Assembly (NCBI RefSeq): GCF_010092445.1
Contig: NZ_CP048031.1
Span: 1,426,001-1,490,000 of the forward strand
DNA: 64,000 bases
Origin: Shewanella sp. Arc9-LZ
Lineage (GTDB): Bacteria; Pseudomonadota; Gammaproteobacteria; Enterobacterales; Shewanellaceae
Direction: 5' to 3'
Shown here: one piece after another, positions 37,555 to 57,859 of the stretch
Layout of the letters: the number at the start of each line of letters is the position of its first letter
Position numbering within the stretch: position 1 is the first letter of the stretch
Position numbers and translations under genes: made by a program
Notes under the pieces: generated by a model
What the model was told of the DNA's origin: nothing
The model's database searches: none
The model's input: only the letters and a program-made list of their open reading frames with translations

Positions 37555-38750
<1,196 letters not shown>

Positions 38751-38806
38751 TTACGAGGTAATAATATCACCTCTATTTAGGTGGCCAAAATAACTATGCC
38801 ACTACA

Positions 38807-38952
38807 GTCAGAGGGTTGCGACGGATCTCAACCTAAGAGCATATCTCAGACACTTAGAACTTTACATGGCTAAGCATCCAGAAGTAAAGTTTTACCAAGC
38901 GAGTTTATCAGGCGCTAAAATTCGCGGTTCTCAGTATAAGGACCTTATATAA
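38807..38952 (+). pseudogene. 3' remnant of a DUF115 (Maf-type) glycosyltransferase gene
   Basis: From the IS end an open frame of 47 codons reads Gln-Arg-Val-Ala-Thr-Asp-Leu-Asn-Leu-Arg and then His-Pro-Glu-Val-Lys-Phe-Tyr ... Gly-Ala-Lys-Ile-Arg-Gly, ending TAA at 38950. The full Maf protein in this window has the matching Tyr-Pro-Asn-Val-Asp-Phe ... Ala-Ala-Lys-Ile-Glu-Gly at the end of its DUF115 domain. So this is the C-terminal piece of a second, shorter Maf paralogue whose 5' part is gone. The next frame starts within its stop (TAATG). Confidence 0.65.
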
Positions 38953-39190: not shown

Positions 39191-39269
39191 ACAAGGCAAA
39201 AATACTAGAGCATCAAGGTTCCTAGGAACTTGCCGTTAATAGATTATACACAGCCATTTGCGAGTAACT

Positions 39270-40136
39270 ATGACTACACATTCACCTATTTTTATCGCTG
39301 AAGTCTCTAGTAACCATCATAGAGACTTACAGCGTTGTATTGAGTTTATTAAAACCGCTGCAGACATTGGTTGTGATGCCGTAAAGTTTCAGCTTTTTCA
39401 AATAGAGCAACTTTTCGCTCCCGAGATTCTGGCTAAAAGTGAAACGCATCGAAAGCGCAAAGATTGGGAACTCCCTGTCAGTTTTTTGCCTGAATTAAAA
39501 CAAAGTTGTGATGAGTATAGTATTCAGTTTTCTTGCACCCCCTTCTATTTAGATGCAGTGGCAGAACTTGCTCCATATGTTGATTTTTATAAGATAGCCT
39601 CCTACGAATTGCTATGGACTGATCTACTGGTAGCCTGTGCAAAAACTGGATTGCCGGTTGTTCTTTCAACTGGCATGGCCACTTTAGAAGAGATAGATAA
39701 AGCAGTACTCACATTAAAAGAAAATGGTGCTAAAGATATAACCTTACTCCATTGTGTATCTGCATACCCAACACCTGAGAATGAATGTAATCTTGCGGTA
39801 TTAGAAAGCTTTAGAAATCGCTATCAAGTTAATGTTGGCTGGTCTGATCATACCGTTTCGAGTGCCGTACTCAACCGAGCTGTCCACAAATGGCAAGCCG
39901 ATGTTATAGAGTTTCATTTAGATTTAGATGAGAAGGGCGATGAATATGCTTCTGGACATTGTTGGTTGCCACAACAGATTGCGCCAGTGATCCGTGGTGC
40001 TAAGATAATTGAGTCTATCGATGGTAATCCGATTAAACAGTTTGTACCCTGTGAAACGTCAGATAGAGAGTGGCGAGCTGATCCGATTGATGGCCTTCGA
40101 CCTTTAAAGAAGATTAGAGCAAGCTTTCAAGGATAG
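39270..40136 (+). CDS. N-acetylneuraminate/pseudaminate synthase family protein (no SAF domain)
   Basis: Condenses a 6-carbon amino-hexose with phosphoenolpyruvate to make a 9-carbon nonulosonic acid. The TIM barrel is clear: Phe-Ile-Ala-Glu-Val-Ser-Ser-Asn-His, Cys-Asp-Ala-Val-Lys-Phe-Gln, Ser-Cys-Thr-Pro-Phe, Lys-Ile-Ala-Ser-Tyr-Glu-Leu, Leu-Ser-Thr-Gly-Met-Ala, Leu-Leu-His-Cys-Val-Ser-Ala-Tyr-Pro-Thr-Pro, and Gly-Trp-Ser-Asp-His-Thr. At 288 residues it is about 55 shorter than NeuB or PseI and lacks the C-terminal SAF (antifreeze-like) domain. ATG 39270 is chosen over TTG 39258. It is followed by a terminator. The likely place is the flagellin sugar pathway with pseB and pseC. Confidence 0.85.
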   Translation: MTTHSPIFIAEVSSNHHRDLQRCIEFIKTAADIGCDAVKFQLFQIEQLFAPEILAKSETHRKRKDWELPVSFLPELKQSCDEYSIQFSCTPFYLDAVAELAPYVDFYKIASYELLWTDLLVACAKTGLPVVLSTGMATLEEIDKAVLTLKENGAKDITLLHCVSAYPTPENECNLAVLESFRNRYQVNVGWSDHTVSSAVLNRAVHKWQADVIEFHLDLDEKGDEYASGHCWLPQQIAPVIRGAKIIESIDGNPIKQFVPCETSDREWRADPIDGLRPLKKIRASFQG

Positions 40137-40226: not shown

Positions 40227-41462
40227 TTAAACGCTAGTTTCAATCTTAAGCGTATCGTATACCCATTTCACTCTTTGCTCTAGCTGTTGTCGATTATCCG
40301 CCGTGACAATAAACACGCCGAATCTATTAGCATGACTTGTGGTCTCTGGCACGATATCACCCACTTGATACCAAATGTCGAGCTTTTTAACAAAATCCAT
40401 TGCGCGAACCGTCTCAATACCAGAGATTGAAATAATCTTACCTGGTGCAGGGAAAAAGTAGCGATTGGCGACAGCGGTATTAATAACAGGGGTTAATTTA
40501 TCGAGTTCAGGCTGCTCACCAAGGGCTATTTTTAGTGCTGCCTCCACGTAGTTAATGCCCAAACCTAGTGGCACTAGGCTTTCTGAAAAGTCACCGCCAC
40601 TTAAGCGGGTTGCAACCTCAATAACCTTAGGGCCCGATTTCGTGTAAACAATATCGCCTTTAATCACGCCATTGGTTACCCCTAACGCGAGTGCCGCTTG
40701 TTTAATTAAGGTTTCGACTTTTTTCCTCTGTTCACCTTGGATTAAGCTAGGCTGCCAACCACCGTTCTCAATAATATTCGGTGCAAAGCGGCTGAGCATT
40801 TCATAATTGCGATCGACATACCCAGGAGTATAAGCGCACCCTTGATACATGATAGTTTCAGTACTAATTTGTGGCCCCGCTAAATACTCTTCTACCATCA
40901 CCTCGCCACAAAAAGACTCCGATTTGGCTTTATTATATAAGGCGTTTAAATCTGACGTTTCAGTTAGTAGAAACACGCCTCTAGCCCCAGAACGATCAAG
41001 AGGCTTGATGATGAGTGGCAGGCCCCTTTGTGCAACGATATCAGCCAAATGGTTGGCTGATGCTAATAAGCTAAACCATGGAATAGCAACCCCACTTTGT
41101 TGAAAGCATTGCTTCATTTTAAGCTTATTGGTGGCAATATTTGCAGCTTCAATCGGTATGTGTGGCACGTTGATATAGGCTGCCAGTTGCGCCACATATT
41201 GCGATATATCACTGCCCATCACGCATACCGCATCAATTTTACGCTGCTGGCTTCGATACTCATCGACAAAGGCCTTTAGCGCATCGAGATCCATGGTGCT
41301 GACAACCCTATAATCGTCTGCAAGGTCAAACCCAGCTGATGCTGGATTGCCATCCACAACGACTGTGTATAAGCCCATTTGATTGGCCGTTTTAATCAGA
41401 AATAACTGATCGCGACTGCCACCGAGTAACAATACCGTTTTTTGATTTTGTATTACCGACAT
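40227..41462 (-). CDS. ATP-grasp ligase
   Basis: ATP-dependent carboxylate-amine or thiol ligase of 411 residues. An N-terminal pre-ATP-grasp fold (Val-Leu-Leu-Leu-Gly-Gly-Ser) is followed by the ATP-grasp domain with Leu-Pro-Leu-Ile-Ile-Lys-Pro-Leu-Asp-Arg-Ser-Gly, Glu-Val-Met-Val-Glu-Glu-Tyr-Leu-Ala-Gly-Pro and Lys-Val-Ile-Glu-Val-Ala-Thr-Arg-Leu-Ser-Gly-Gly, the metal-binding segment. It resembles carbamoyl-phosphate synthase-like and alanine-anticapsin ligase-type proteins. It lies 3 bases behind the SDR gene as last of five genes in the operon. It probably joins an acyl or amino-acid group onto the sugar; the substrates are unknown. Confidence 0.85.
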   Translation of the reverse strand: MSVIQNQKTVLLLGGSRDQLFLIKTANQMGLYTVVVDGNPASAGFDLADDYRVVSTMDLDALKAFVDEYRSQQRKIDAVCVMGSDISQYVAQLAAYINVPHIPIEAANIATNKLKMKQCFQQSGVAIPWFSLLASANHLADIVAQRGLPLIIKPLDRSGARGVFLLTETSDLNALYNKAKSESFCGEVMVEEYLAGPQISTETIMYQGCAYTPGYVDRNYEMLSRFAPNIIENGGWQPSLIQGEQRKKVETLIKQAALALGVTNGVIKGDIVYTKSGPKVIEVATRLSGGDFSESLVPLGLGINYVEAALKIALGEQPELDKLTPVINTAVANRYFFPAPGKIISISGIETVRAMDFVKKLDIWYQVGDIVPETTSHANRFGVFIVTADNRQQLEQRVKWVYDTLKIETSV

Positions 41463-41465
41463 GCA

Positions 41466-42218
41466 TTAAGTTCCTAAAATGGCGCCGCCGCTCACAGCTA
41501 ATACTTGAGCTGTCATATATTGCTGCTCTTCAGAGGCCAGCATGACGCAGGCACTGGTAATATCCTCCATGCGAGCTGCTTTTTTTAGTAACGTCATATC
41601 AATCACCTTTTGACCGGCTGGGCTATCTATCTCGTCGGCAGTTTGGTCAGTACGTACTATGCCTGGAGCAACGGCATTGACTAAAATATTGTGTTCTGCA
41701 CCGTATCTTGCAATCACTTTTGTTAAGCTGTTTAGTCCTGCTTTAGACACTGCATAGTGAACAGTTTTAGGCCCATGATATTGTCCCGCCACCGATGAAA
41801 TATTAATAATGCGGCCGCCTTGTTGCGCTTGCATATACGGAAAAACTTCTTGGCAGCAAATAAAGGGACCTTTCAGATTAACCCCCATTATTTCATCCCA
41901 AGCTTCATCGGTGACTTCATCAAACCAGCCGCGTTTGTTGATCCCCGCATTATTAACCAAGATATCTATTTTGCCAAAGGCCGAAACAGCTTGCTCAAAC
42001 AGCTGCTTTATTTCTGAACGCACTGATACGTCGGCTTTGACCGCTATAGCATTTTTCCCATGGAGGTTAAGCTTATCGGTTAACGCCTGAGCTTGCTCAG
42101 TGCTATGAACATAGTTAATTACGACTTTGGCCCCTTGAGCGCAATATTCTTGTGCAATCGCAGCCCCAATACCTCTGGAAGACCCCGTAATAACGGCAAC
42201 TTTCCCCGCTAAACGCAT
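41466..42218 (-). CDS. Short-chain dehydrogenase/reductase
   Basis: NAD(P)-dependent oxidoreductase of 250 residues, FabG-like. The cofactor motif Gly-Ser-Ser-Arg-Gly-Ile-Gly, Asn-Asn-Ala-Gly, catalytic Ser in Ile-Ser-Ser-Val-Ala-Gly, and Tyr-Ala-Val-Ser-Lys with catalytic Tyr and Lys are all present. The start overlaps the stop of the DXS-like gene (TGATG) and AGGAG lies 9 bases before. The operon context suggests it reduces the ketone made by the DXS-like enzyme, rather than a fatty-acid role. Confidence 0.9.
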   Translation of the reverse strand: MRLAGKVAVITGSSRGIGAAIAQEYCAQGAKVVINYVHSTEQAQALTDKLNLHGKNAIAVKADVSVRSEIKQLFEQAVSAFGKIDILVNNAGINKRGWFDEVTDEAWDEIMGVNLKGPFICCQEVFPYMQAQQGGRIINISSVAGQYHGPKTVHYAVSKAGLNSLTKVIARYGAEHNILVNAVAPGIVRTDQTADEIDSPAGQKVIDMTLLKKAARMEDITSACVMLASEEQQYMTAQVLAVSGGAILGT

Positions 42219-43996
42219 CACTTGTTTACTCCTAAGTAATCTGGCCATTGCAGTGCTAATCGCTCAATGATCTGCACGGGCATCATATCGCATTCAGTGC
42301 TGCACTCATCTTTGTTTCCTGGGAGCACAAACTTATCATTGACGCCACTTCTAAGTACTTGGATTGACATGTTTGCGTCAGCCAGTGTTTCAAGGATCAG
42401 AGAGCCAAAGCCGCCATTAAGCACGCTTTCTTCTAGTGTGATTAGATGCTTAGTGTGTTCAATTAGCTCAATAAATCGTGCTGCTGGGAATGGCTTTATC
42501 GACTGAACACAGATGATACCGCAGTCTTTTCCCTGTACTTTGAGTAATGCTTTAAGCTCATATGCTGCCGCTAAACGATTACCCAAACACACCAAGTAGC
42601 CATCACTTCCCTTTGCCGCCACAGATAAGCCACAAGGCTCAACAACACCAGCGTCAGGTTCTGGGCTTGGGATAGGCTCATACGGATACAAAATCACCAT
42701 CGGCCCTTGCGGGTTAGCAAGGCGTTTCTCAATTAATGCCGTTAAGTCGTCAGAACTGACGGGATACATCACTTGCATGTTAGGGAATGAGCGTAAGTAA
42801 GGGATATCATAAATACCGTGATGAGTGGCACCGTCATAGCCTGAAAAACCAGCTCTGACACCAAATATCGTTACAGGTAAGTCCATGTAACAAGCATCAT
42901 GAATAAGCTGATCATATGCGCGCTGCATAAACGTAGTTTGCATGCATACTACGGGTTTTTTACCGCCTAATGCTAAACCGCAAGCCATGCCAACCGCTTG
43001 TTGCTCGGCCATGCCCACATCAAGAGCACGATCTGGATACAGTGCTAGACATTCATCCATTGATGATGCATAAGGCGTTGCAGGTGTCATGGCAAACACA
43101 TCCTCATCGGTCGCCATCTTTTGCTTTAATGCTTCTGCCGCAACCACAGCATAAGTGCGGCCAACAACAGTTGCGGCGGCTCCTTTACCAGTTTGAGCAT
43201 CAAAAGGCATAGAAAAGTGCATCTTGTATGGATGATCTTTAGCGCAAGCTAAGCCTTTACCTTTCTCTGTTTTAACATGCACAATAACAGGGCGAGCTAA
43301 CTGTTTAGCTGTTGCCAACTGCTTAAGTAAGCAGGCGATATCGTGACCATCTTCTACGAGTAAATAACCAAACCCCATGCCTTCAAAAAATGCGCGGCTA
43401 TTTTGCTGCCAGTTTTCACCTGAAGTCAGGTTACGCATACCGCCAACAGATTTAGCAATCGCCATCTCGTTATCATTAATCACAATAATAAGTTTGTTGT
43501 CTTTATCTTCGGCGCAATAGTTCAGCCCTTCAAATGCCATACCTTCAACCAGTGAACCATCACCAATCATTGATACCACATAGTTAGCGGGCGATGTGAG
43601 CTTAAGTGCTTTAGCGTAACCCGATGCGATAGATAAAGAAGTACCTGCATGTGAGGCGTCAATAGCATCGTGCTCACTTTCATTACGGGCCACAAAACGA
43701 TTCATGCCGCGGTATTGATTCAAAGTAGCAAAGTTATCAACTCGGCCGGTTAAAATCTTATGGGTATAGCCTTGATGGCCAGTGTCGAAAATAATCTTAT
43801 CTGTAGGTGAATTAAACACTGCATGAATCGCTATGGTAAGTTCAACCACTGATAAGTTAGCGCCAATATGGCCACCTGTCGCCGAAATATTACAGATCAA
43901 AAATTGTCTAATATCTTCGGCTAGTTGCGTTAATTGTGCGCTAGATTGTTGCTTGAGCGCATCAAGGGTCGGCACAATTAATTGATGGGTATTCAT
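42218..43996 (-). CDS. Transketolase/DXS-like thiamine-diphosphate enzyme
   Basis: Protein of 592 residues with the plan of 1-deoxyxylulose-5-phosphate synthase: TPP-binding domain (Thr-Gly-His-Gln-Gly-Tyr, Gly-Asp-Gly-Ser-Leu-Val-Glu-Gly, Asn-Asp-Asn-Glu-Met), pyrimidine-binding domain (Gly-Met-Ala-Glu-Gln-Gln-Ala-Val-Gly) and transketolase C-terminal domain. It is somewhat shorter than housekeeping DXS (about 620) and sits in a sugar operon, so I take it as a specialised paralogue that transfers a two-carbon unit to an unknown acceptor. ATG 43996 follows AAGGA by 7 bases and lies 2 bases after the previous stop. Confidence 0.85.
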   Translation of the reverse strand: MNTHQLIVPTLDALKQQSSAQLTQLAEDIRQFLICNISATGGHIGANLSVVELTIAIHAVFNSPTDKIIFDTGHQGYTHKILTGRVDNFATLNQYRGMNRFVARNESEHDAIDASHAGTSLSIASGYAKALKLTSPANYVVSMIGDGSLVEGMAFEGLNYCAEDKDNKLIIVINDNEMAIAKSVGGMRNLTSGENWQQNSRAFFEGMGFGYLLVEDGHDIACLLKQLATAKQLARPVIVHVKTEKGKGLACAKDHPYKMHFSMPFDAQTGKGAAATVVGRTYAVVAAEALKQKMATDEDVFAMTPATPYASSMDECLALYPDRALDVGMAEQQAVGMACGLALGGKKPVVCMQTTFMQRAYDQLIHDACYMDLPVTIFGVRAGFSGYDGATHHGIYDIPYLRSFPNMQVMYPVSSDDLTALIEKRLANPQGPMVILYPYEPIPSPEPDAGVVEPCGLSVAAKGSDGYLVCLGNRLAAAYELKALLKVQGKDCGIICVQSIKPFPAARFIELIEHTKHLITLEESVLNGGFGSLILETLADANMSIQVLRSGVNDKFVLPGNKDECSTECDMMPVQIIERLALQWPDYLGVNK

Positions 43997-43998
43997 AA

Positions 43999-45210
43999 TC
44001 AATCCTTGTTATTAGGCTTTACGCAGATAAGCACAGTATTGGTGCCGTAAGGGTCTGTTTCATCATAAATAATGCCAGCTTTAATACCGATCACTTTAAC
44101 GACAATAAAGTATTGATTCACTAATGCCAGTAACTCGTTTAGTGAGTATTCGATTAAATGACATGAGTTAACAGGGATATGACCAATGCTGTTTTGAGGA
44201 GTGCTTAGCACTAATACACCGCCGGGTTTCAGTACGCGCTTAATTTCACTTAAGCACTCATGTTCAGGCACATGCTCTAAGGTTTCAAAGCTGGTGACCG
44301 CATCGTAAGACTCATCGCTAAATGACAACTTAGTAATGTCTTCGACAAAATATTCGGTATTAGCCGCACTGTTGTTCTGCTTTGCAAATTCAACACTGAG
44401 TTCGTCTAAATCGGCTCCGTGCACCTCTTTCAGGTGACTAGACATTATATTCACGCCGTAGCCATCGGCGCAGGCAATGTCGATAATCTTCATATCAGGC
44501 TTAAGGTGTTGCAGTGCGAGCTCGTAATGGAATCCAAGCCTGTCACCTGAAACGATTCGATGCTCGTTTACCTCTTGGCGCGGAATAGCATAAATTTGTG
44601 TTGCCAAGCGGCGACACTCGGCTAGGTATTCATCACTATAGCAAGGTAAGTCAGCTAAAAACTCGACGCTAAAACGCTGGGCATTCATTGAGAAATAGTA
44701 CTTAGGGTGCACACGATACTTTGCATCTTCAGCTTGTGTTAGTTCAGCGTCTATCGCTTTAAGCGCGCCCACACGGAAGATTTCTGAAGTGAAATGCACC
44801 GGAAAATCATCCGGTAGTTTTATGCAGTCTAGCTGCTTACTGATGGCTATATCGAGCATACTCAAGCTCGCTTGTGGGTCGAAGCAAAAATGAATACCAT
44901 CAACGCGGACCACGAAGTCGGTGTCACTTAGGTCATGGCTCGCTTCGATCATTCGGTTAAGCGGACTGGCATTATGACCGTAATAAAGAGACAAACGTTG
45001 GTCATCAATAAGTTTAACTATATCATCCAGCTCGCCGCCACGATCAAATTCAGGCGCAACTAACACTACATCAAAACCAGCAAAGTGGCACAAAACGCGT
45101 CGAATAGTACGAACAACGGCTATTTCGTCTTCAACCATGCCCATGCAGATATCGACACCACCCGCCCATGAACGCGAACTGGCTTGTACTAGTACTTTTG
45201 TTTTTATCAT
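43999..45210 (-). CDS. Fusion: nucleotidyltransferase-like domain plus SAM methyltransferase
   Basis: Two-domain protein of 403 residues. Residues 1 to about 200 resemble an SpsF-type cytidylyltransferase (Phe-Val-Val-Arg-Val-Asp-Gly-Ile at the place of the usual Arg-x-Gly-Asp segment), but without a clear N-terminal nucleotide-binding Arg-Leu-x-Ser-x-Arg-Leu motif. Residues about 215-400 are a class I methyltransferase: Ile-Ile-Asp-Ile-Ala-Cys-Ala-Asp-Gly-Tyr-Gly, Ala-Asp-Leu-Asp, Phe-Glu-Thr-Leu-Glu-His-Val. AGGA lies 7 bases before ATG 45210. It is second in the operon. It probably methylates a sugar or its substituent; the front domain may be non-catalytic. Confidence 0.8.
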   Translation of the reverse strand: MIKTKVLVQASSRSWAGGVDICMGMVEDEIAVVRTIRRVLCHFAGFDVVLVAPEFDRGGELDDIVKLIDDQRLSLYYGHNASPLNRMIEASHDLSDTDFVVRVDGIHFCFDPQASLSMLDIAISKQLDCIKLPDDFPVHFTSEIFRVGALKAIDAELTQAEDAKYRVHPKYYFSMNAQRFSVEFLADLPCYSDEYLAECRRLATQIYAIPRQEVNEHRIVSGDRLGFHYELALQHLKPDMKIIDIACADGYGVNIMSSHLKEVHGADLDELSVEFAKQNNSAANTEYFVEDITKLSFSDESYDAVTSFETLEHVPEHECLSEIKRVLKPGGVLVLSTPQNSIGHIPVNSCHLIEYSLNELLALVNQYFIVVKVIGIKAGIIYDETDPYGTNTVLICVKPNNKD

Positions 45211-45243
45211 TTTCTATTCCTATTAGAGCGGGTTTACTTTGCT

Positions 45244-46167
45244 TTATTTGCTGCGCTTACGAGCATATAGGCAGATCTCTCGACCAATCCCTACTTCAGC
45301 CATCGATTGATACCACGCCCTTTTTAAATCGTTTTGGCCAGATTCAATTAGGCTCATTTCAAACTTCATTCTTTTCTTATGGCAAGCTCTGCCTAACTCG
45401 TCATTACCGACGTAGTTATCCCCCATCAATAAAAACATATCGATAGGAAAGCTAGATTCCTTTAAAAAGACGTCGAATCCAGAATTATTGAGCAATTGTG
45501 TCAATGAACTTACATCAAAGTAATTAAGATGATGTGGCGGCGCTAACCACCATGGCTCAAGGCCATCAAGCTCTCTTACTGTCTTTTGAAAAGGGTTATA
45601 ATCATTGGGTACCGAAATACACAAAAGCCCTTCATCCTTTATCAGCTCGCTTATACAACCTAATAGCTCAATAGGATTGGGGATATGCTCCAATACATTA
45701 CAAGCATGAACCACATCGAAGGGCTCAAAATTAGCAACGCTGGTTGGGCTTAAAAAGTCGGTGACGACATCAACGCCAAGTTCTTTAGCATGCTCACTTG
45801 CTTGCTTTGATGGCTCAATGCCTTGTGTTGTCCAACCACGCTGCAACCCATGGTGAAGGAAAAAACCAGGGCCTGCGCCGACATCAAATACTCTTCTACT
45901 TTTCTGAGGCAAATTGGCTTCAAAAGTGTCGAATCGGTCGGAGAAAACTCGTTCCCACCATGCTGCATCTTCATTACTTTGGCTCAAAAATAGTGGTTTA
46001 TCTTTAGTATAATACTCTTCGCGATAAACTTGCTCTAACTCTTCTGGAGTCGGCATAGGCATCACATGTTTAAAACCACACTCTTTGCAATCGATAACAT
46101 CATAACCATGACGAGAATCGATGACTTTACCACTGTGCAAATGGAATCCGCTGTTTATGTCAGCCAT
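45244..46167 (-). CDS. Class I SAM-dependent methyltransferase with zinc-ribbon-like N-terminus
   Basis: Protein of 307 residues. The N-terminus has an Asp-Cys-Lys-Glu-Cys-Gly-Phe-Lys-His segment, as in sugar C- and O-methyltransferases. The Rossmann part reads Val-Phe-Asp-Val-Gly-Ala-Gly-Pro-Gly-Phe-Phe and Ala-Cys-Asn-Val-Leu-Glu-His-Ile-Pro. AGGAG lies 8 bases before ATG 46167; the longer frame to 46206 runs into the promoter and is rejected. It is the first gene of a five-gene operon behind a sigma-54 element. Confidence 0.87.
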   Translation of the reverse strand: MADINSGFHLHSGKVIDSRHGYDVIDCKECGFKHVMPMPTPEELEQVYREEYYTKDKPLFLSQSNEDAAWWERVFSDRFDTFEANLPQKSRRVFDVGAGPGFFLHHGLQRGWTTQGIEPSKQASEHAKELGVDVVTDFLSPTSVANFEPFDVVHACNVLEHIPNPIELLGCISELIKDEGLLCISVPNDYNPFQKTVRELDGLEPWWLAPPHHLNYFDVSSLTQLLNNSGFDVFLKESSFPIDMFLLMGDNYVGNDELGRACHKKRMKFEMSLIESGQNDLKRAWYQSMAEVGIGREICLYARKRSK

Positions 46168-46201: not shown

Positions 46202-46218
46202 AGCAAAATATATGCCGT
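46202..46218 (-). promoter_or_regulatory. Sigma-54 promoter of the methyltransferase operon
   Basis: On the minus strand ACGGCATATATTTTGCTT: CGG, 8 bases, TTGC. Predicted start near 46193, only about 26 bases before ATG 46167, which leaves the ribosome site intact. The -24 form (CGGCA) is the same as at flgT. Confidence 0.7.
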
Positions 46219-46595
46219 TATATTTTTGACGTTAAGGATACTCTTAAAATAAATAGTTTTACTTCAGTTAATTATAATAATATGAGTAAAAGCATCGGAC
46301 TGAACAAATAAATGGATGAACACATGTGATTATGGCATGTTGATAACCTTTTGCGAAAGACCAATTGATTAATTAAACTTTCTATACAATTGAGTTGCTG
46401 CTACGTGCGTAAACCTAATTTTGTTCATTATTATGCACATATCTGAGATACGATAACTCTCAATAAACTCCATCTTAATATATTAAATAGACTATTGATT
46501 GAGTATCCCTTGATTTATACTTAAACTTAAATATTTAAAGCAGATTGACAGATGCTTTCATAACAACACAAAGTTAATTCTCGCTAAGAGTGCTT
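46219..46595. other. Divergent intergenic region before the GH57-like gene
   Basis: AT-rich region with no gene I can support. A weak sigma-54-like element (TTG, 8 bases, TTGC at 46340-46354) faces the GH57-like gene but lacks the -24 GG, so I do not call it. Confidence 0.35.
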
Positions 46596-48515
46596 ATGCC
46601 TATTTATACCCAAAGCCATAATATTTATGCTATTTTTCATTTAAATCTCGCTTTTTCCTCTATAGATAGTAGCGATCATAGAAGAGTCATAGAGGATTGC
46701 TATTGGCCTATACTGCAAACCATCGTAAACGAAGGTATACCTATAGGTATTGAGTTAACTGGTTATACTTTAGAATGTATTCAAGCTATAGACCCTAATT
46801 GGGTTAGCAAGCTTAAGTTTTTACTGAAAGATGATCGCTGCGATCTTATTGCTAGTGGCTATAGTCAGATCATTGGCCCACTAATTCCAGCTACAGTTAA
46901 TCAAGAGAATCTCAGACTAGGACAACAATCTTACCAAAATCTCCTAGGTGCGACCCCTCGGATTGCCTATCTGAATGAACAAACTGTTTCAGCGAGCATT
47001 TTAGATATTTATATCGATGCAGGATTTGAAGCAGTTGTAATTGAGTGGGATAACCCATACTCGAACAGTCCTGACTGGCAACTAAAGATGCTTAATAGAC
47101 CGCAATCTTTATTGAGTGCGAGTGGCAGACAAATTAAGGTGATTTGGAACCATGCTACTGCCTTCCAGAGGTTTCAGCGTTATGTTCACAGTGAGCTTAC
47201 TATAGGTGACTATAGCGACTATTTAGAACAGGCTATACAACCTGATACCCTTGCATTTCCAGTGTATGGTAGCGACGCTGAAGTCTTTGATTTTCGTCCT
47301 GGGCGTTACCATACAGAAGAGGTTCAAATAAGAGGCGAGTGGGAACGCATAACGCAGTTGTTTAAAGCACTAGAGACAAACAAGAAATATAATTGGATAA
47401 AAATATCCAAACTTTTATCTTTGTGGCGTCAAGATTCCCCTCTAAAGCTAACCAATGCTGAACACCCTGTAGCAGTAAAAAAGCAGGCAAAGTATAATAT
47501 ATGTCGCTGGGGGCTAAGTGGTCGCAATGACTTATTACTCAACACCCTATGCTATCAAAGATTCAAGGAACTAAATGACCAGAAAAGTGGCGATGAAGAA
47601 TGGCGCAACCTGTGCCGTCTTTGGGCTAGCGATTTAAGGACGCATTTAACACAAATCCGATATGAAGCACTACATATAAAATCACATAGGAGTAATGAGC
47701 CAATCTTTACACCATGGGAGCATAAAGCCGAGATTAGGATTCAATATGACAATGAGCGCCGAAGGCTACAGATAAATACCCAAGAGATAGCATTGACTCT
47801 CAACTGTAACCGGGGTTTGGCGATTGACTCACTGGCTTTTTCTAGCCATGATTTTGTTCCAATAACTGGCACTTTACCTCAGGGATACTTTGATCATATT
47901 AATCATGGCGTCGACTTTTATACTAACCACCTATTAATTGAGCGATTTCTAAACCGCGATAGAGTTACCGATCTCAACAGAGTAAATTATGAACTTGCAC
48001 AGCAAGATGGTGGACTAATCATCTACTGTCGTCAGTCGCTTAAAAGTGGATTGTTACTAAAATGGTATCGTCTCAATGGTGAAATTTTGCACACTGGATT
48101 CCATTTTGAAGATACGCTTAGACCAGAGGCCTCAATAAGGCTAGGTTTCTTAACGCTGCTAGATTGTGAAGCAAGAGCTTGGTATCAGACACATTTGGGC
48201 GGTATAGACGCGGAATCTTTTCAAATTAGTCAAGATATGGACCAAGGAGCACCAATTTCCTCTATCGTATCTAGTACTAGTGCACTTGGGGCTACAGACG
48301 GTTCAATCAGTTTTGGTAATAAAAATAGGGGCGTACAAGTTAGCTGGGATCCAGCCCTCTGTGCTGCCTTACCTATGATATCTTCTAAACAAATAGGCTC
48401 TCAGTATTTAAATCGTCTCTGGTTCTCACTCGCCGAAGCCGATGAGACCTTAAAATCTGGCGGTAGCCTGCTTGATTTTGAATTTTGTATTACCCCAAGG
48501 GAGTCTCTAGTATGA
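46596..48515 (+). CDS. Glycoside hydrolase family 57-like protein
   Basis: Protein of 639 residues. The N-terminal half (about 10-330) looks like a GH57/polysaccharide-deacetylase barrel: Phe-His-Leu-Asn-Leu-Ala-Phe-Ser-Ser, Leu-Ile-Ala-Ser-Gly-Tyr-Ser-Gln, Tyr-Leu-Asn-Glu-Gln-Thr-Val and Tyr-Gly-Ser-Asp-Ala-Glu-Val-Phe-Asp-Phe-Arg-Pro-Gly, the Glu and Asp being at places used as catalytic residues in GH57. The C-terminal half is beta-rich. No signal peptide, so cytoplasmic. Its stop overlaps the next start (ATGA). I infer a role in making or trimming the flagellin glycan, perhaps as a transferase; activity is not proven. Confidence 0.7.
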   Translation: MPIYTQSHNIYAIFHLNLAFSSIDSSDHRRVIEDCYWPILQTIVNEGIPIGIELTGYTLECIQAIDPNWVSKLKFLLKDDRCDLIASGYSQIIGPLIPATVNQENLRLGQQSYQNLLGATPRIAYLNEQTVSASILDIYIDAGFEAVVIEWDNPYSNSPDWQLKMLNRPQSLLSASGRQIKVIWNHATAFQRFQRYVHSELTIGDYSDYLEQAIQPDTLAFPVYGSDAEVFDFRPGRYHTEEVQIRGEWERITQLFKALETNKKYNWIKISKLLSLWRQDSPLKLTNAEHPVAVKKQAKYNICRWGLSGRNDLLLNTLCYQRFKELNDQKSGDEEWRNLCRLWASDLRTHLTQIRYEALHIKSHRSNEPIFTPWEHKAEIRIQYDNERRRLQINTQEIALTLNCNRGLAIDSLAFSSHDFVPITGTLPQGYFDHINHGVDFYTNHLLIERFLNRDRVTDLNRVNYELAQQDGGLIIYCRQSLKSGLLLKWYRLNGEILHTGFHFEDTLRPEASIRLGFLTLLDCEARAWYQTHLGGIDAESFQISQDMDQGAPISSIVSSTSALGATDGSISFGNKNRGVQVSWDPALCAALPMISSKQIGSQYLNRLWFSLAEADETLKSGGSLLDFEFCITPRESLV

Positions 48516-50221
48516 CTAAGACGCTTGCTATTGTGGGTGCACGGCTTAATTCAAGCCGTCTCGCGAAGAAGCACCTGCTTTCACTTGCCGACGAACCCAT
48601 GATTGGGCATATTTGGCGTCGTCTAAAATTGTGTAGCCAAGTAGACAGCACGGAGCTTGCCACCACAGCCGACAGTTTTAACCAACCGCTGATCGATTGG
48701 GCTAACATTCATCAGATAAACTGTCATCCCTTCTATGGTGATGTTAACGACCTTATGGCTAGACTAGATAAGATCATTCAAAGAGAAGCACCGGCCTATA
48801 TTCTCTATATATGCGGTGATTGCCCCTTGATTGATCCGGGCTTTATCGACCACGGCCTCAGCACCTTAAAGGCTTCAGGTAAGGATAGCATCACATTGCG
48901 GGAGGGGGTTAAGACACTGCATGAAGGAATATCTTTTTATAGCCGCCATGGATGGGAAAAATTGATGACGGCAAGCCAGTGTATAATGTCGCGCGAACAC
49001 GTAGGATACGCTGACACACTGACACCAGTGTTAAATAAAGAGAGCATCAATGACAGTAGCGATTTTTCTAAAATTGACCACAGAATATCGGTAGATACCC
49101 AAGCCGACTATCTCTTTATGGCTGAGGTATATCAACGTTGGTATGATTGCCATCCTACCAATTCCATTGTGAGTTTAGCCTGGGTACAACAACAGCTTAT
49201 TACTGATTCTCTACTGGCCAATATCAACACTCATGTCGCTCAAAAAGCCGCCGATAAGCAATATGCTAAAGCTAGCCTATATTGCCACCTAGGCGAAAAT
49301 ATTGGCTTAGGACATTTTAGACGTATAAAATTAATCGCCGATGCACTGCAGGAATATCTTAGCATCGGTTGCACTATTCATGTTCTACACGATGGTAAGT
49401 CATTGGCAAATGGCGATTCTAAGATAAAATGGTATCAAACTGAAGCTCAACTGCTAAAAGTCATTACATCAGATAGTAATCCACTATTACTCCTCGACTT
49501 TCATCCAAAGTTTATATCTCTTGTCGAACTCACTCAGGCCTTATTACCCCCTAAACAAAGAGGAGCAAAGCTTATTGGCATAGATAAATTAGCTTCATTG
49601 CTTCCTACGCTAGATTGGTTATTCATTCCAAGTTTTAATACAACCTTAAGAGGTGAAAAAATATCTACAGGCTGGAAAAACTACTTATTTAAGACCATGC
49701 CTAAACGAGATAAACAACATCAAATTTTGGTACTAACTGGTGGCAGTGACGCTTTACACTATGGCGATGAATTCCCCTCCATGCTGGAAAATTTGCAGTT
49801 AAATTGGCCTATAATCTGGATTCAAGGCCCCTTGGCTAAGCCTCCAATAATCCGACAGGGTGCAAACATAAAGGTTTTAAAAGATCCACAAAACCTTTAC
49901 GGACTCATCGCTGAATCAGAAATAGTTTTATCTTGTTATGGTCTATCCCTATTTGAATCGATCTTTTCTAACGCTGCCACTTTATTATTACCGCCACAGC
50001 ATCTTTGTGATGATGAAGAATTACAAAATCTTTCGGAAGAGAAATGTTGCCTAATAAGTAAGTCTCTAGCCGATGCCTGCACTCAATTGGTTGATCTAGT
50101 TGCTAGCGAAACAGCAAGAAACACTTTGAAAAAAAAGGCTAAAAAGGTATTTGCGGATCATAAAGGGATAACACAGCTTATTGACGACATCACACAACTG
50201 ATGAAAGATAGTCAAATTTAA
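48512..50221 (+). CDS. Fused SpsF-like cytidylyltransferase and PseG/SpsG-like protein
   Basis: Two enzymes in one chain of 569 residues. Residues 1 to about 240 are an SpsF/NeuA-type nucleotidyltransferase: Ile-Val-Gly-Ala-Arg-Leu-Asn-Ser-Ser-Arg-Leu, Tyr-Ile-Cys-Gly-Asp-Cys-Pro-Leu-Ile-Asp. Residues about 255-565 are a PseG/SpsG GT-B-like domain: Asn-Ile-Gly-Leu-Gly-His-Phe-Arg-Arg, Leu-Thr-Gly-Gly-Ser-Asp, and Ser-Cys-Tyr-Gly-Leu-Ser-Leu-Phe-Glu. In the pseudaminate route PseG removes UDP and PseF activates the final sugar with CMP, so the fusion could cover steps 4 and 6. AAGGGAG precedes ATG 48512. Confidence 0.82.
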   Translation: MTKTLAIVGARLNSSRLAKKHLLSLADEPMIGHIWRRLKLCSQVDSTELATTADSFNQPLIDWANIHQINCHPFYGDVNDLMARLDKIIQREAPAYILYICGDCPLIDPGFIDHGLSTLKASGKDSITLREGVKTLHEGISFYSRHGWEKLMTASQCIMSREHVGYADTLTPVLNKESINDSSDFSKIDHRISVDTQADYLFMAEVYQRWYDCHPTNSIVSLAWVQQQLITDSLLANINTHVAQKAADKQYAKASLYCHLGENIGLGHFRRIKLIADALQEYLSIGCTIHVLHDGKSLANGDSKIKWYQTEAQLLKVITSDSNPLLLLDFHPKFISLVELTQALLPPKQRGAKLIGIDKLASLLPTLDWLFIPSFNTTLRGEKISTGWKNYLFKTMPKRDKQHQILVLTGGSDALHYGDEFPSMLENLQLNWPIIWIQGPLAKPPIIRQGANIKVLKDPQNLYGLIAESEIVLSCYGLSLFESIFSNAATLLLPPQHLCDDEELQNLSEEKCCLISKSLADACTQLVDLVASETARNTLKKKAKKVFADHKGITQLIDDITQLMKDSQI

Positions 50222-50300: not shown

Positions 50301-52486
<2,186 letters not shown>

Positions 52487-52972: not shown

Positions 52973-55432
52973 ATGAATAATATATTGAATAACTTCGCAA
53001 TAAGTCGATTTAATGAATACTATTTACCTAGCGTAAATCGCTATACTTTTGAAAATATTGACTCAAAAACAATTTATAATCATAAGTTTAAAAAGGATTT
53101 TTCGTTTAAAGATAAGCTTAATATTGTTATTGGAATGGATTCTGGTCTGCTAGCTAGTTATGCATTAGAGCAGGAAATTGCTTTAGGGTCTAAATTTATT
53201 TTTATTGAATTAGATGAAGTGCTGTCATTACTAATAATAGATGTCCCGTTAGCTAAGAAAAAAAACTTTAAAATTGTAAATGAAACTGATTTTTTAGATC
53301 TGTTAGAACAAGAGGAAATAAGAATATATATCGCTAAAGGAGCGTATGAAATCTACGCTTCTCTAGGTGTCACATCCCAACACCTAGAAGCCTATAGCTC
53401 ACTATTTAGCCGAATAGAGGACAAGGTGCAAGATGAACACTTTAACCATAGAAGTTCATTGAATCAAAAAGTATTCTTTCAGACTCAGCTAGAGAATGTT
53501 CCAGATAATCATACACCTGCAAAGTATTTAAGAAATCAATTTAAAGGAAAGACTTGCTTGGTCGTTGCTGGTGGTCCTTCATTAGATGAGCAAATTGATT
53601 GGATAGTAAAGAATAATGACAATCTTTTCATTATCGCAGTGTCGCGTATTGCAGGTAAGTTAGCTAAAAAGTCTATTTCAGTTGATATTATCACTTGTGT
53701 TGATCCACAAGAGTTTAGTTTTGATGTTAGCCGAGAAATTTTTGCATTGAGTGAAAATACACTTCTAGTAAACTCTTACCATATTAGTCCAAAAGTACTT
53801 TCACAATGGCAAGGACAAAGTGTATATCTAGGTCAACGATATCCATGGAGTAGCAAGAATGATCACGATAACATTATTACTATCGGACCGACAGTTACTA
53901 ATAGCTCGGTTCGCTTAGCTATTGAAATGGGATTCAACAGAATACTATTAAGTGGTGTTGATTATTGTTACTCCAGAACTGGATACTCCCACGCTAACGG
54001 AACGGTTGAAGCCAATCTTGGTCCAAGTTTAGGACATAGTAACAAATGGGTTGAAACCTATGCTGGCTACCAAGCTGAAGCTCCAATACAGCTTGTCCAT
54101 GCAATGGCATCACTTGCATCTGAGGTGAAAGAATATCCAAATGTTGATTTTATAAATTTGTCAAACAGTGCTGCAAAAATAGAAGGAGTATCTCATTTTT
54201 CTACTGAAAAAATTATTCTTGATGAATTTGGTAGTAAAATAATCTCTAGTTTAGATATGTGTAACACTGAAAATAAAAAGCTAGATTTAGAACAATCATT
54301 AAATGAATGTCAAAAAGCTAAAGATGATCTCACTAAACTATTAAAGCTAACAAAAAATGCGTTAACTTTATCTAAGAAACTAAATTTAAACTCATTGAGT
54401 TCTGATGTAATACTTAACGAAGTCAATAAGATCGAAAAAAGTATAAATTCAAAGTATCCAGAGCTAACAAGATTAATTAAAATGTATGGATATTTTGAGT
54501 TTTCAAAATTTTTAACAACAAGAGAAACAGAAAGCTGGACTCAGTCACATATTAATGAAATGACAATAAGTTACTATGATGCATTTAATCAAACTTGCTA
54601 CAACATTCTTAAATTAGTGATAAAGTCCTATGAAAAAATAGTATTTAGAATACTAGAAGTTAATGCTAACTCATTAATACCGCTTGCACCTACGTGGTTA
54701 GAAAATAGTCAGCCAGGTAGAGTTTTCTTATGGTGTAAAAACCATAAAGCTCCATTATCGGACTCGCATGAGAATGAAATCTTTGAACAGTTGAATGAAA
54801 AATTTAAAGAAGATATTACTCAAGTACGAAAAGCTTATATTGATGTGCTAAATAAAGCTTCTAAAATGGAAAACGTCTATAAAAAAATTATGGTACTAAA
54901 CTCTAATAAAAATAGTTATGGATTATCACTTACAGTCCAAAATTTACTTCCTTTAATTGAATCTGACAATGAAGCTAAAAGACTATATCACCTCGCATTA
55001 TCATTCCAACTCAGTCTTGAACAAGAGCCACAGCAGGCATTAGATGCTTTACTTGCTCTGCCTGAAGATCTAAGTACAGAAATTGAGTTGAAACATATTA
55101 TTTTACTAGCTCTTAAACTAGGGGACCTTTCTCTAGCTTCATCTACTCTGGTCAAAATGTTGGTTCATAGTGATGAGTATATACCTCAGTATGCTAATAT
55201 TTTAAAACTCCAAGGTAAGATTCAAGAATCAGTTAATGTCTATCTCGATTACCTAGAAAAGTATCCATTAGATACTAAGACGTGGATTAAGCTTGGCTTA
55301 TTCATGTTTGAAATCAATCAAGTAGAAGCTTCGTATACTGCATTTTCTAATGCAATTAATGCTGAACCTAATAATAAGGTGGCACATGATCACTTGTCTG
55401 AACTTACAAGATTAATGAATATCCCACAATAG
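52973..55432 (+). CDS. Motility-associated factor (Maf, DUF115) glycosyltransferase with C-terminal TPRs
   Basis: Probable flagellin glycosyltransferase of 819 residues that would move a nonulosonic acid onto Ser/Thr of flagellin in the cytoplasm. The DUF115/MptE-like core (about 175-400) has Val-Ala-Gly-Gly-Pro-Ser-Leu at 198-204, Asp-Pro-Gln-Glu-Phe and Leu-Leu-Ser-Gly-Val-Asp-Tyr-Cys. A helical Lys/Asn-rich section (about 430-640) and TPR-like repeats (about 650-815) follow; the TPR part may bind flagellin or chaperone. The gene is visibly more AT-rich than its neighbours. It stands alone behind a sigma-54 element. Confidence 0.88.
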   Translation: MNNILNNFAISRFNEYYLPSVNRYTFENIDSKTIYNHKFKKDFSFKDKLNIVIGMDSGLLASYALEQEIALGSKFIFIELDEVLSLLIIDVPLAKKKNFKIVNETDFLDLLEQEEIRIYIAKGAYEIYASLGVTSQHLEAYSSLFSRIEDKVQDEHFNHRSSLNQKVFFQTQLENVPDNHTPAKYLRNQFKGKTCLVVAGGPSLDEQIDWIVKNNDNLFIIAVSRIAGKLAKKSISVDIITCVDPQEFSFDVSREIFALSENTLLVNSYHISPKVLSQWQGQSVYLGQRYPWSSKNDHDNIITIGPTVTNSSVRLAIEMGFNRILLSGVDYCYSRTGYSHANGTVEANLGPSLGHSNKWVETYAGYQAEAPIQLVHAMASLASEVKEYPNVDFINLSNSAAKIEGVSHFSTEKIILDEFGSKIISSLDMCNTENKKLDLEQSLNECQKAKDDLTKLLKLTKNALTLSKKLNLNSLSSDVILNEVNKIEKSINSKYPELTRLIKMYGYFEFSKFLTTRETESWTQSHINEMTISYYDAFNQTCYNILKLVIKSYEKIVFRILEVNANSLIPLAPTWLENSQPGRVFLWCKNHKAPLSDSHENEIFEQLNEKFKEDITQVRKAYIDVLNKASKMENVYKKIMVLNSNKNSYGLSLTVQNLLPLIESDNEAKRLYHLALSFQLSLEQEPQQALDALLALPEDLSTEIELKHIILLALKLGDLSLASSTLVKMLVHSDEYIPQYANILKLQGKIQESVNVYLDYLEKYPLDTKTWIKLGLFMFEINQVEASYTAFSNAINAEPNNKVAHDHLSELTRLMNIPQ

Positions 55433-57832: not shown

Positions 57833-57859
57833 CTATCGGCACCCCAGGAAAAAACTTTA
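57833..57859 (-). promoter_or_regulatory. Sigma-28 (FliA) promoter of flgM
   Basis: On the minus strand TAAAGTTT, 11 bases, GCCGATAG: it matches the sigma-28 consensus TAAAGTTT-N11-GCCGATAA in all but the last base. It lies just downstream of flgA and gives flgM and flgN their own late promoter. Confidence 0.9.

Follow-up and report, generated by a model that had tools for sequence, protein, structure and literature searches.

A variant of the sfm cluster with a DXS-like carboligase in the flagellar nonulosonate locus of Shewanella sp. Arc9-LZ

Which chemistry is encoded by five consecutive genes within a nonulosonic acid locus, when one of them carries the name of the housekeeping enzyme DXS? 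This question is raised by a stretch of 64,000 nucleotides from Shewanella sp. Arc9-LZ (contig NZ_CP048031.1, positions 1,426,001 to 1,490,000; "the window", with coordinates counted from its first base), which is part of a genome consisting of one contig of 4,911,031 bases. We consider it likely that the five genes specify a carboligase, a reductase, methyltransferases, and a ligase, which together build and attach an O-methylated side group on the flagellin nonulosonate, as a variant of the pathway encoded by sfmABCDE of S. oneidensis MR-1. We favour this reading because of gene content, synteny, an altered substrate pocket in the DXS-like enzyme, PseH matches below the cut-off, the pattern of exchange among strains, and the published requirement for the cluster in MR-1.

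The operon and its DXS-like enzyme

All five open reading frames (ORFs) are intact and are listed here from the first gene of the operon to the last:

45244..46167, minus strand: MT1, S-adenosylmethionine (SAM) methyltransferase, first gene of the operon (Methyltransf_23, 85 bits; start ATG)
43999..45210, minus strand: fused protein, cytidylyltransferase-like fold plus SAM methyltransferase (Methyltransf_11, 75.5 bits; without RLxxK motif)
42218..44002, minus strand: DXS-like thiamine diphosphate (ThDP) carboligase with altered acceptor pocket (DXP_synthase_N, Transket_pyr, and Transketolase_C, all above the Pfam cut-offs)
41466..42248, minus strand: short-chain dehydrogenase/reductase (SDR; adh_short, 210 bits)
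40227..41462, minus strand: ATP-grasp ligase of the L-amino-acid-ligase type (LAL_C2, 58.6 bits, and ATP-grasp_3, 39.5 bits, both above the cut-offs)

The successive spacings are +33, -4, -31, and +3 bases. A preceding sequence-only reading had described five tightly coupled genes with gaps of 2-33 bases or overlaps, and the ORF coordinates bear this out. For MT1, an alternative upstream start (TTG at 46206) exists, while the ORF starting with ATG spans 45244-46167. A chance operon is ruled out because the gene set is conserved in relatives. Of 129 Shewanella genomes, 23 have a NeuB that is at least 69% identical to that of the window, with a drop to 35% for the matches that follow, and an SDR, an ATP-grasp protein, and a ThDP enzyme (broken in one case) are encoded beside this short NeuB in all 23 loci.

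The database name of the protein encoded at 42218-44002 is DXS. Despite an altered pocket for glyceraldehyde 3-phosphate (GAP), it reaches 486.5 bits with the NCBIfam model dxs (TIGR00204; cut-off 465.95) and thus scores as a DXS equivalog. The protein was compared within an alignment of 133 rows, consisting of the window protein, 12 proteins from other Shewanella, and 120 database proteins (one protein is represented twice, L055 = P0003). The database proteins are the best 120 of at least 7981 at E <= 1e-60, most of which are probably true DXS. Residues H49, H80, H122, H299, E370, R398, R420, D427, and H431 (E. coli DXS numbering) are kept in all 133 rows. In all 133 rows, the pocket residues R99, Y392, and R478 are replaced by N, Q, and Y, a uniformity which results in part from the selection of nearest homologues. 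This triplet occurs in 0 of 58 controls, which have RYR (55), KYR (2), or RYK (1). The controls are housekeeping-like enzymes from a contig scan with patterns shared with true DXS, plus three viral loci; an ORF passed the filter for 58 of 83 loci, and the other 25 are uncounted. N, Q, and Y are likewise found in the DXS-like proteins of G277 and G380, two genomes from outside Shewanella. According to passages of PMC11019550, the GAP pocket of E. coli DXS comprises R420, R478, and Y392, and the exchange R478A raises the Km for GAP to 1400 µM. R420 is kept in the DXS-like enzyme.

An altered GAP pocket in combination with kept catalytic residues points to a ThDP carboligase for which GAP is unlikely to be the acceptor. 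Pyruvate would be the donor, judging from the family. The enzyme has the fold family, ThDP, and the catalytic residues in common with DXS but differs from it by N/Q/Y at R99/Y392/R478 and by the location of its gene in a glycan cassette. Its residues make it very unlikely that it is a DXS. The score above the dxs cut-off and the database name would fit a second DXS copy for isoprenoid or vitamin synthesis which was placed here by chance. However, the genome has its own DXS elsewhere, which keeps R99, Y392, and R478, the pocket is altered in all rows, and the gene is found together with those of the cassette in all 15 genomes read. We regard such a second copy as extremely improbable; we reject a DXS isozyme on the basis of the pocket comparison together with the genome's own DXS. 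The label DXS on this subfamily is thus likely to be a systematic misannotation by automatic procedures, with consequences for metabolic modelling and for research on DXS inhibitors. The subfamily may offer a new carboligase.

In the fused METHYLTRANSFERASE (43999-45210), the N-terminal nucleotidyltransferase domain has no Pfam match and is recognized by its fold. With the AlphaFold model (mean pLDDT 93.9), Foldseek retrieved methyltransferases and, at rank 28, the solved cytidylyltransferase 6oew_A (E 1.3e-10). The earlier label as nucleotidyltransferase is thus right by fold. Q9, S12, W15, G17, and D20 are constant in the 55 rows (from 59) that are ungapped there; none of these rows has RLxxK, a motif of the CMP synthetases encoded nearby. 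The domain probably lacks cytidylyltransferase activity. The ATP-grasp protein has both an ATP-grasp domain and LAL_C2, as is characteristic for L-amino-acid ligases, and 3vot is among its nearest solved relatives. By domain type, it is a putative carboxylate-amine ligase.

The sfm precedent and the proposed side group

For S. oneidensis MR-1, we rely on passages of Bubendorfer et al. (2013; PMC3765264), who deleted SO_3261-SO_3265 and named the cluster sfmABCDE. The products are NeuB, a ThDP enzyme (ilvB), an SDR, a methyltransferase, and an ATP-grasp protein. Upon deletion of the first four genes, the flagellins migrate near the unmodified mass. The ATP-grasp mutant showed a slightly smaller flagellin shift and kept its filament; a visible filament was also kept by the SDR mutant. 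The glycan consists of a 274-Da mono-acetylated nonulosonate on serine and an N-free moiety of 236, 250, or 264 Da, in which O-methyl was detected by mass spectrometry and nuclear magnetic resonance. In the ion source, this outer moiety readily comes off, and the authors deduce that the 274-Da sugar bears a basic group. They knew the cluster from one further species and remark that MR-1 is devoid of PseH. The sequence-only reading had correctly stated that S. oneidensis flagellin carries modified nonulosonic acid. Its view that the operon cannot be matched to any proven structure did not hold up, as the operon is a variant of sfmABCDE, deletions of which alter the flagellin mass; it is thus not unprecedented.

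We take locus L049 (genome G065) to be the sfm locus of MR-1. ORFs of 290, 255, 395, and 412 amino acids (aa) agree with PMC3765264 (the ThDP enzyme has 605 aa from the first start versus 581 published), and the FlaA and FlaB glycopeptide sequences were found in the same genome. The following features of the window surround the operon:

38809..38949, plus strand: 47-codon remnant of the Maf that precedes NeuB in MR-1 (tblastn, 87-91% over 47 aa)
39213..39239, plus strand: FliA (sigma28)-like site, 30 bases 5' of the NeuB ATG (one mismatch to the MR-1 consensus)
39270..40136, plus strand: short NeuB/PseI-like synthase, counterpart of sfmA, divergent from the operon (NeuB, 198.7 bits; no SAF domain match)
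46590..48515, plus strand: GH57-family protein, border of the exchanged slot (Glyco_hydro_57, 60.2 bits)
48485..50221, plus strand: fused CMP-sugar synthetase and PseG-like hydrolase (CTP_transf_3, 58.2 bits; PseG match below the cut-off, 20 bits)
50301..51446, minus strand: PseC aminotransferase (TIGR03588, 548 bits, cut-off 423.5)
51437..52459, minus strand: PseB dehydratase (TIGR03589, 540 bits, cut-off 407.8)
52973..55432, plus strand: Maf-type flagellin glycosyltransferase (MptE-like domain, 154.6 bits)

With NeuB, the CMP-sugar synthetase/PseG-like protein, PseC, PseB, and Maf adjoining, the operon indeed lies inside a nonulosonic acid locus. The flanking flagellar and chemotaxis genes code, according to Pfam, for FlgT, FlgO, FlgN, FlgM, FlgA, CheR, and rod and hook proteins.

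The window and MR-1 use the same slot by the flagellar genes. They have in common a short NeuB next to a flagellar block, the SDR, ATP-grasp, and methyltransferase classes, a ThDP enzyme, and GH57, CMP-synthetase, PseC, and PseB as neighbours. NeuB of the window is 82.5% identical to SfmA, whereas the SDR is 35.9% identical to SfmC and the ATP-grasp protein 38.7% identical to SfmE. The ThDP enzymes, DXS-like in the window and acetolactate-synthase-like in MR-1, belong to different Pfam families, with similarity to SfmB not significant (E 0.58); the window thus has no ThDP enzyme of the SfmB family. Unlike MR-1, it has no SfmD-type methyltransferase, and its cassette is divergent from NeuB instead of following it in a single operon under a FliA site; in the window, the FliA-like site is available to NeuB alone. 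MR-1 has been characterized experimentally, whereas the system of the window is known here from its genes. Beside its sfm operon, MR-1 also keeps two methyltransferases of the window's type (type B, see below; L049 16747-18881): one at L049:17970-18881 is 54.8% identical to MT1 and one at L049:16747-17949 is 58.9% identical to the fused protein. That MR-1 has three methyltransferases at the locus (SfmD and the two of type B) and three methylation stages is a match which is suggestive only. The searched passages of PMC3765264 contain no mention of SO_3266 and SO_3267, whose role in methyl heterogeneity seems untested there.

The nonulosonate itself does not follow the standard pseudaminate route. 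The Campylobacter/Helicobacter Pse pathway and the window have the PseB and PseC equivalogs in common, but NeuB of the window is far below the cut-off of the PseI equivalog (156.9 versus 340.25 bits), and the best PseH match in its genome has 25.8 bits versus a cut-off of 93.1. The gene content of the locus thus supports the earlier placement of the operon outside this route. PseH exceeded the cut-off in 8 of 45 genomes, namely in none of the 25 that have the cassette-type NeuB (23 from Shewanella plus G277 and G380) and in 8 of the 20 with another NeuB; sub-threshold acetyltransferase matches occur in all 45. PseH matches below the cut-off in the cassette genomes agree with the mono-acetylated 274-Da sugar of MR-1 (PMC3765264). 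The modified viosamine of Pseudomonas syringae pv. tabaci is likewise a flagellin amino sugar with acyl and O-methyl groups, but the sugar differs (passages of PMC3958885).

In the proposed pathway, PseB and PseC would make the amino-sugar precursor and, with PseH lacking, the nonulosonate from the short NeuB would retain one unacetylated amine. The DXS-like enzyme would add two carbons, with pyruvate as the probable source, to a carbonyl compound that is not GAP. The SDR would reduce the ketone, the two methyltransferases would cap hydroxyls, and the ATP-grasp enzyme would activate a carboxylate, so that the group could be joined to the sugar as an amide on the free amine or as an ester. The resulting side group would be N-free, O-methylated, and polyhydroxylated, and the sugar would pass via its CMP form to flagellin serines through a Maf transferase. 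The module would be exchanged between strains as a unit, with ThDP enzymes from other families occupying the same slot. We infer the donor, the acceptor, the order of steps, the linkage, and the function in this strain. The scheme of carboligation, reduction, methylation, and ligation had already been outlined in the sequence-only reading; it is the natural one and fits both the genes and the MR-1 glycan (PMC3765264).

Within the ranges scanned, C22H37N2O12+ is the sole formula within 3 ppm of m/z 521.2340, while the 236-Da increment alone, taken from the precursor mass, would permit five formulas. As a free compound, the outer moiety of MR-1 is C9H18O8, with one double-bond equivalent, which corresponds to one acyl group or one ring but not both. 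Two small acyl groups as the 236-Da moiety are excluded, as C9H18O8 leaves one double-bond equivalent beyond the mono-acetyl nonulosonate. A C8-chain acyl group with one O-methyl, composed of hexuronate or keto-gluconate (C6H10O7), C2H4O from pyruvate, H2, and CH2, is only a lead; C7 and C9 chains also fit.

Several points weigh against the proposed pathway, some of them chemical and others related to locus and strain. In MR-1, flagellin modification is abolished upon deletion of the ThDP enzyme or the methyltransferase, which is more severe than the effect of deleting the ATP-grasp protein (PMC3765264). Such a milder sfmE deletion is not predicted by a simple line in which an acid is made and then ligated, although an unfinished side group that is mishandled by SfmE could cause the severity of the sfmB and sfmD deletions. 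The lability of the outer moiety and the basic group on the 274-Da sugar (PMC3765264) speak against an amide; a glycoside or an ester fits better. An acyl group, as envisaged in the sequence-only reading, is one candidate for the side group. With the SDR and the ATP-grasp protein only 36-39% identical to those of MR-1 and a ThDP enzyme from another family, the product of the window may differ. The ThDP enzyme, SDR, and methyltransferases might instead produce a neutral sugar with a branch or an extended chain, bound glycosidically to the nonulosonate, with a separate role for the ATP-grasp protein. The lability in the source and the deviating ATP-grasp mutant of MR-1 (PMC3765264) would be accounted for, and the one double-bond equivalent of C9H18O8 suffices for one ring. 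We nevertheless consider such a neutral sugar unlikely: Pfam reveals no glycosyltransferase in the cassette that could add a second sugar, and the ATP-grasp gene is present in 23 of 23 loci and tied to the cassette type.

With regard to locus and strain, the motif scan of the window lists no FliA-like site ahead of the operon's own start, 4 of the 13 Shewanella loci with a DXS-like gene (L054, L055, L066, L067) have no flagellar-block gene in the slice analysed, and this strain has lost the NeuB-side Maf, with no further close copy in the genome beyond the 47-aa remnant. At 37555-38949, a transposase gene (rve domain) and this remnant are found where many relatives hold a Maf of 441 aa. The remnant beside a transposase gene, and the DXS-type loci without a flagellar-block gene, would fit a pathway that decorates flagellin in relatives but, in this strain, has lost its function or serves a different glycan of the cell surface. 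We hold this to be quite improbable, as the second Maf and all cassette genes are open and that NeuB-side Maf is also missing from 8 of the 23 cassette loci, the window included (it is present in the other 15). The larger Maf (52973-55432), which is 64.3% identical to the MR-1 Maf at L163:9066-11606, may thus suffice for attachment of the decorated nonulosonate. Two flagellins, 80% identical to FlaB of MR-1, are encoded about 8-10 kb beyond the window end. Of the five mapped FlaB serines, 105 and 171 are conserved; for the remaining three, a Ser or Thr occupies the same or the next position.

Exchange of side-chain cassettes among Shewanella strains

The 23 Shewanella loci were grouped by their ThDP enzyme, with classes that agree with the Pfam and NCBIfam assignments. 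Type A has an acetolactate-synthase-like enzyme (6 loci, including MR-1). A DXS-like enzyme is encoded in 13 loci, consisting of type B (10 loci, including the window) and type D (3 loci, at 46-49%). Type C has split transketolase halves (4 loci, among them the broken L058, whose N half is outside the family cluster). DXS and transketolase are distant relatives, and the C half of the split transketolase scores 202.6 bits with the dxs model. What is new here is an exchangeable cassette with three ThDP families beside NeuB in 23 of 129 Shewanella genomes. In our searches of openly licensed papers, we found no account of the cassette diversity or of the altered carboligase.

The cassette type was mapped onto gene trees, in which many forks are weak and several deep joins are flagged for long branches. 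It requires 10 changes on the NeuB tree (minimum 3; mean of shuffled labels 11.5; 33 of 200 shuffles as low) and 8 on that of GH57 (18 rows; shuffled 10.2; 8/200 as low). Only 4 changes each are required on the ATP-grasp and SDR trees (shuffled 13.2 and 12.3; 0/200 as low) and 6 on that of the mixed methyltransferase family (shuffled 13.0; 0/200 as low). Many changes on the trees of the edge genes and few on those of the cassette genes indicate that the edges keep their own history, while the cassette genes move together. MR-1 is a hybrid, having type-A genes along with the fused methyltransferase and MT1 of type B; its MT1 nests within type-B sequences next to L060.

A GH57 gene is at the cassette border in 20 of 23 loci (the slices of the remaining three end earlier) and also in G277 and G380. 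Of the 23 loci, 16 have flagellar-block genes within the 20-kb slice; such genes are absent from the slices of L048, L053, L054, L055, L058, L066, and L067; in L054 and L055, other genes border the NeuB side. The sequence-only reading had held that occurrence of the operon away from flagellar and nonulosonic acid genes would speak against it. NeuB is adjacent in all 15 DXS-like neighbourhoods read (13 from Shewanella, G277, and G380), but flagellar-block genes were found in the slice only in 9 of 13 Shewanella loci plus G277 and G380.

There is, in our estimation, about an even chance that these loci represent a flagellar-sugar "serotype" locus, in which complete side-chain cassettes replace one another between conserved borders (NeuB on one side, GH57/CMP synthetase on the other), the C-C bond is formed by three ThDP families, and the DXS-like branch is a new non-GAP carboligase, mislabelled as DXS, that serves an undescribed flagellin side group. 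Exchange of such surface-sugar cassettes suggests selection by phages, predators, or hosts. The unsolved glycan of MR-1 becomes a comparative system across strains: pairs with near-identical NeuB but different ThDP modules (G005/G017; G108/G029) make the side-group chemistry testable by comparison.

Some loci deviate in their composition. In L058 (11532-17148), the type-C cassette is fragmented into short ORFs, while NeuB and GH57 remain long. The type-D loci L063 (8402-16614) and L064 have two ATP-grasp genes, which fall into separate clades, along with two types of methyltransferase; they look like a combination of two systems for side chains. Further side groups are suggested by genes for polysaccharide pyruvyl transferase in some cassettes (L067, 8820-10046; L059, 5493-6674).

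FliA-like sites and occurrence outside Shewanella

FliA-like sites with up to two mismatches to the MR-1 consensus number 12 in the window versus 2.1 expected, with one mismatch only at the NeuB site. The NeuB site, like the position of the G277 and G380 loci among flagellar genes, speaks for the proposed pathway. A site at 57833-57859, directly 5' of flgM, has one mismatch to TAAA-N15-GCCGATAA and offers a positive control for the NeuB site.

In the family sample, the DXS-like form was detected in 13 of 146 genomes and in one of five genera, with no genus besides Shewanella. For the order, class, and phylum samples, three candidates per genome were scored among the matches listed. The order sample has the DXS-like form in 3 of 394 genomes, i.e., in two besides that of the window, and the phylum sample in 2 of 398, one of which is already in the order sample. 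In the class sample (3/369), of two matches one (G745) is a housekeeping DXS and the other (G867) was left unclassified. Among 193 genomes around an Omnitrophota genome, there was no match at E <= 1e-130.

In G277, the genes are arranged in the order two Maf, PseB, PseC, CMP synthetase, NeuB, PseG-like, MT1, fused methyltransferase, DXS-like, SDR, ATP-grasp, GH57, and a sigma-54 regulator, beyond which FliF, FliG, and a FliI-like ATPase are encoded. G380 has a similar gene set between FliS and Maf-FliD, in which the SDR gene precedes the DXS-like gene.

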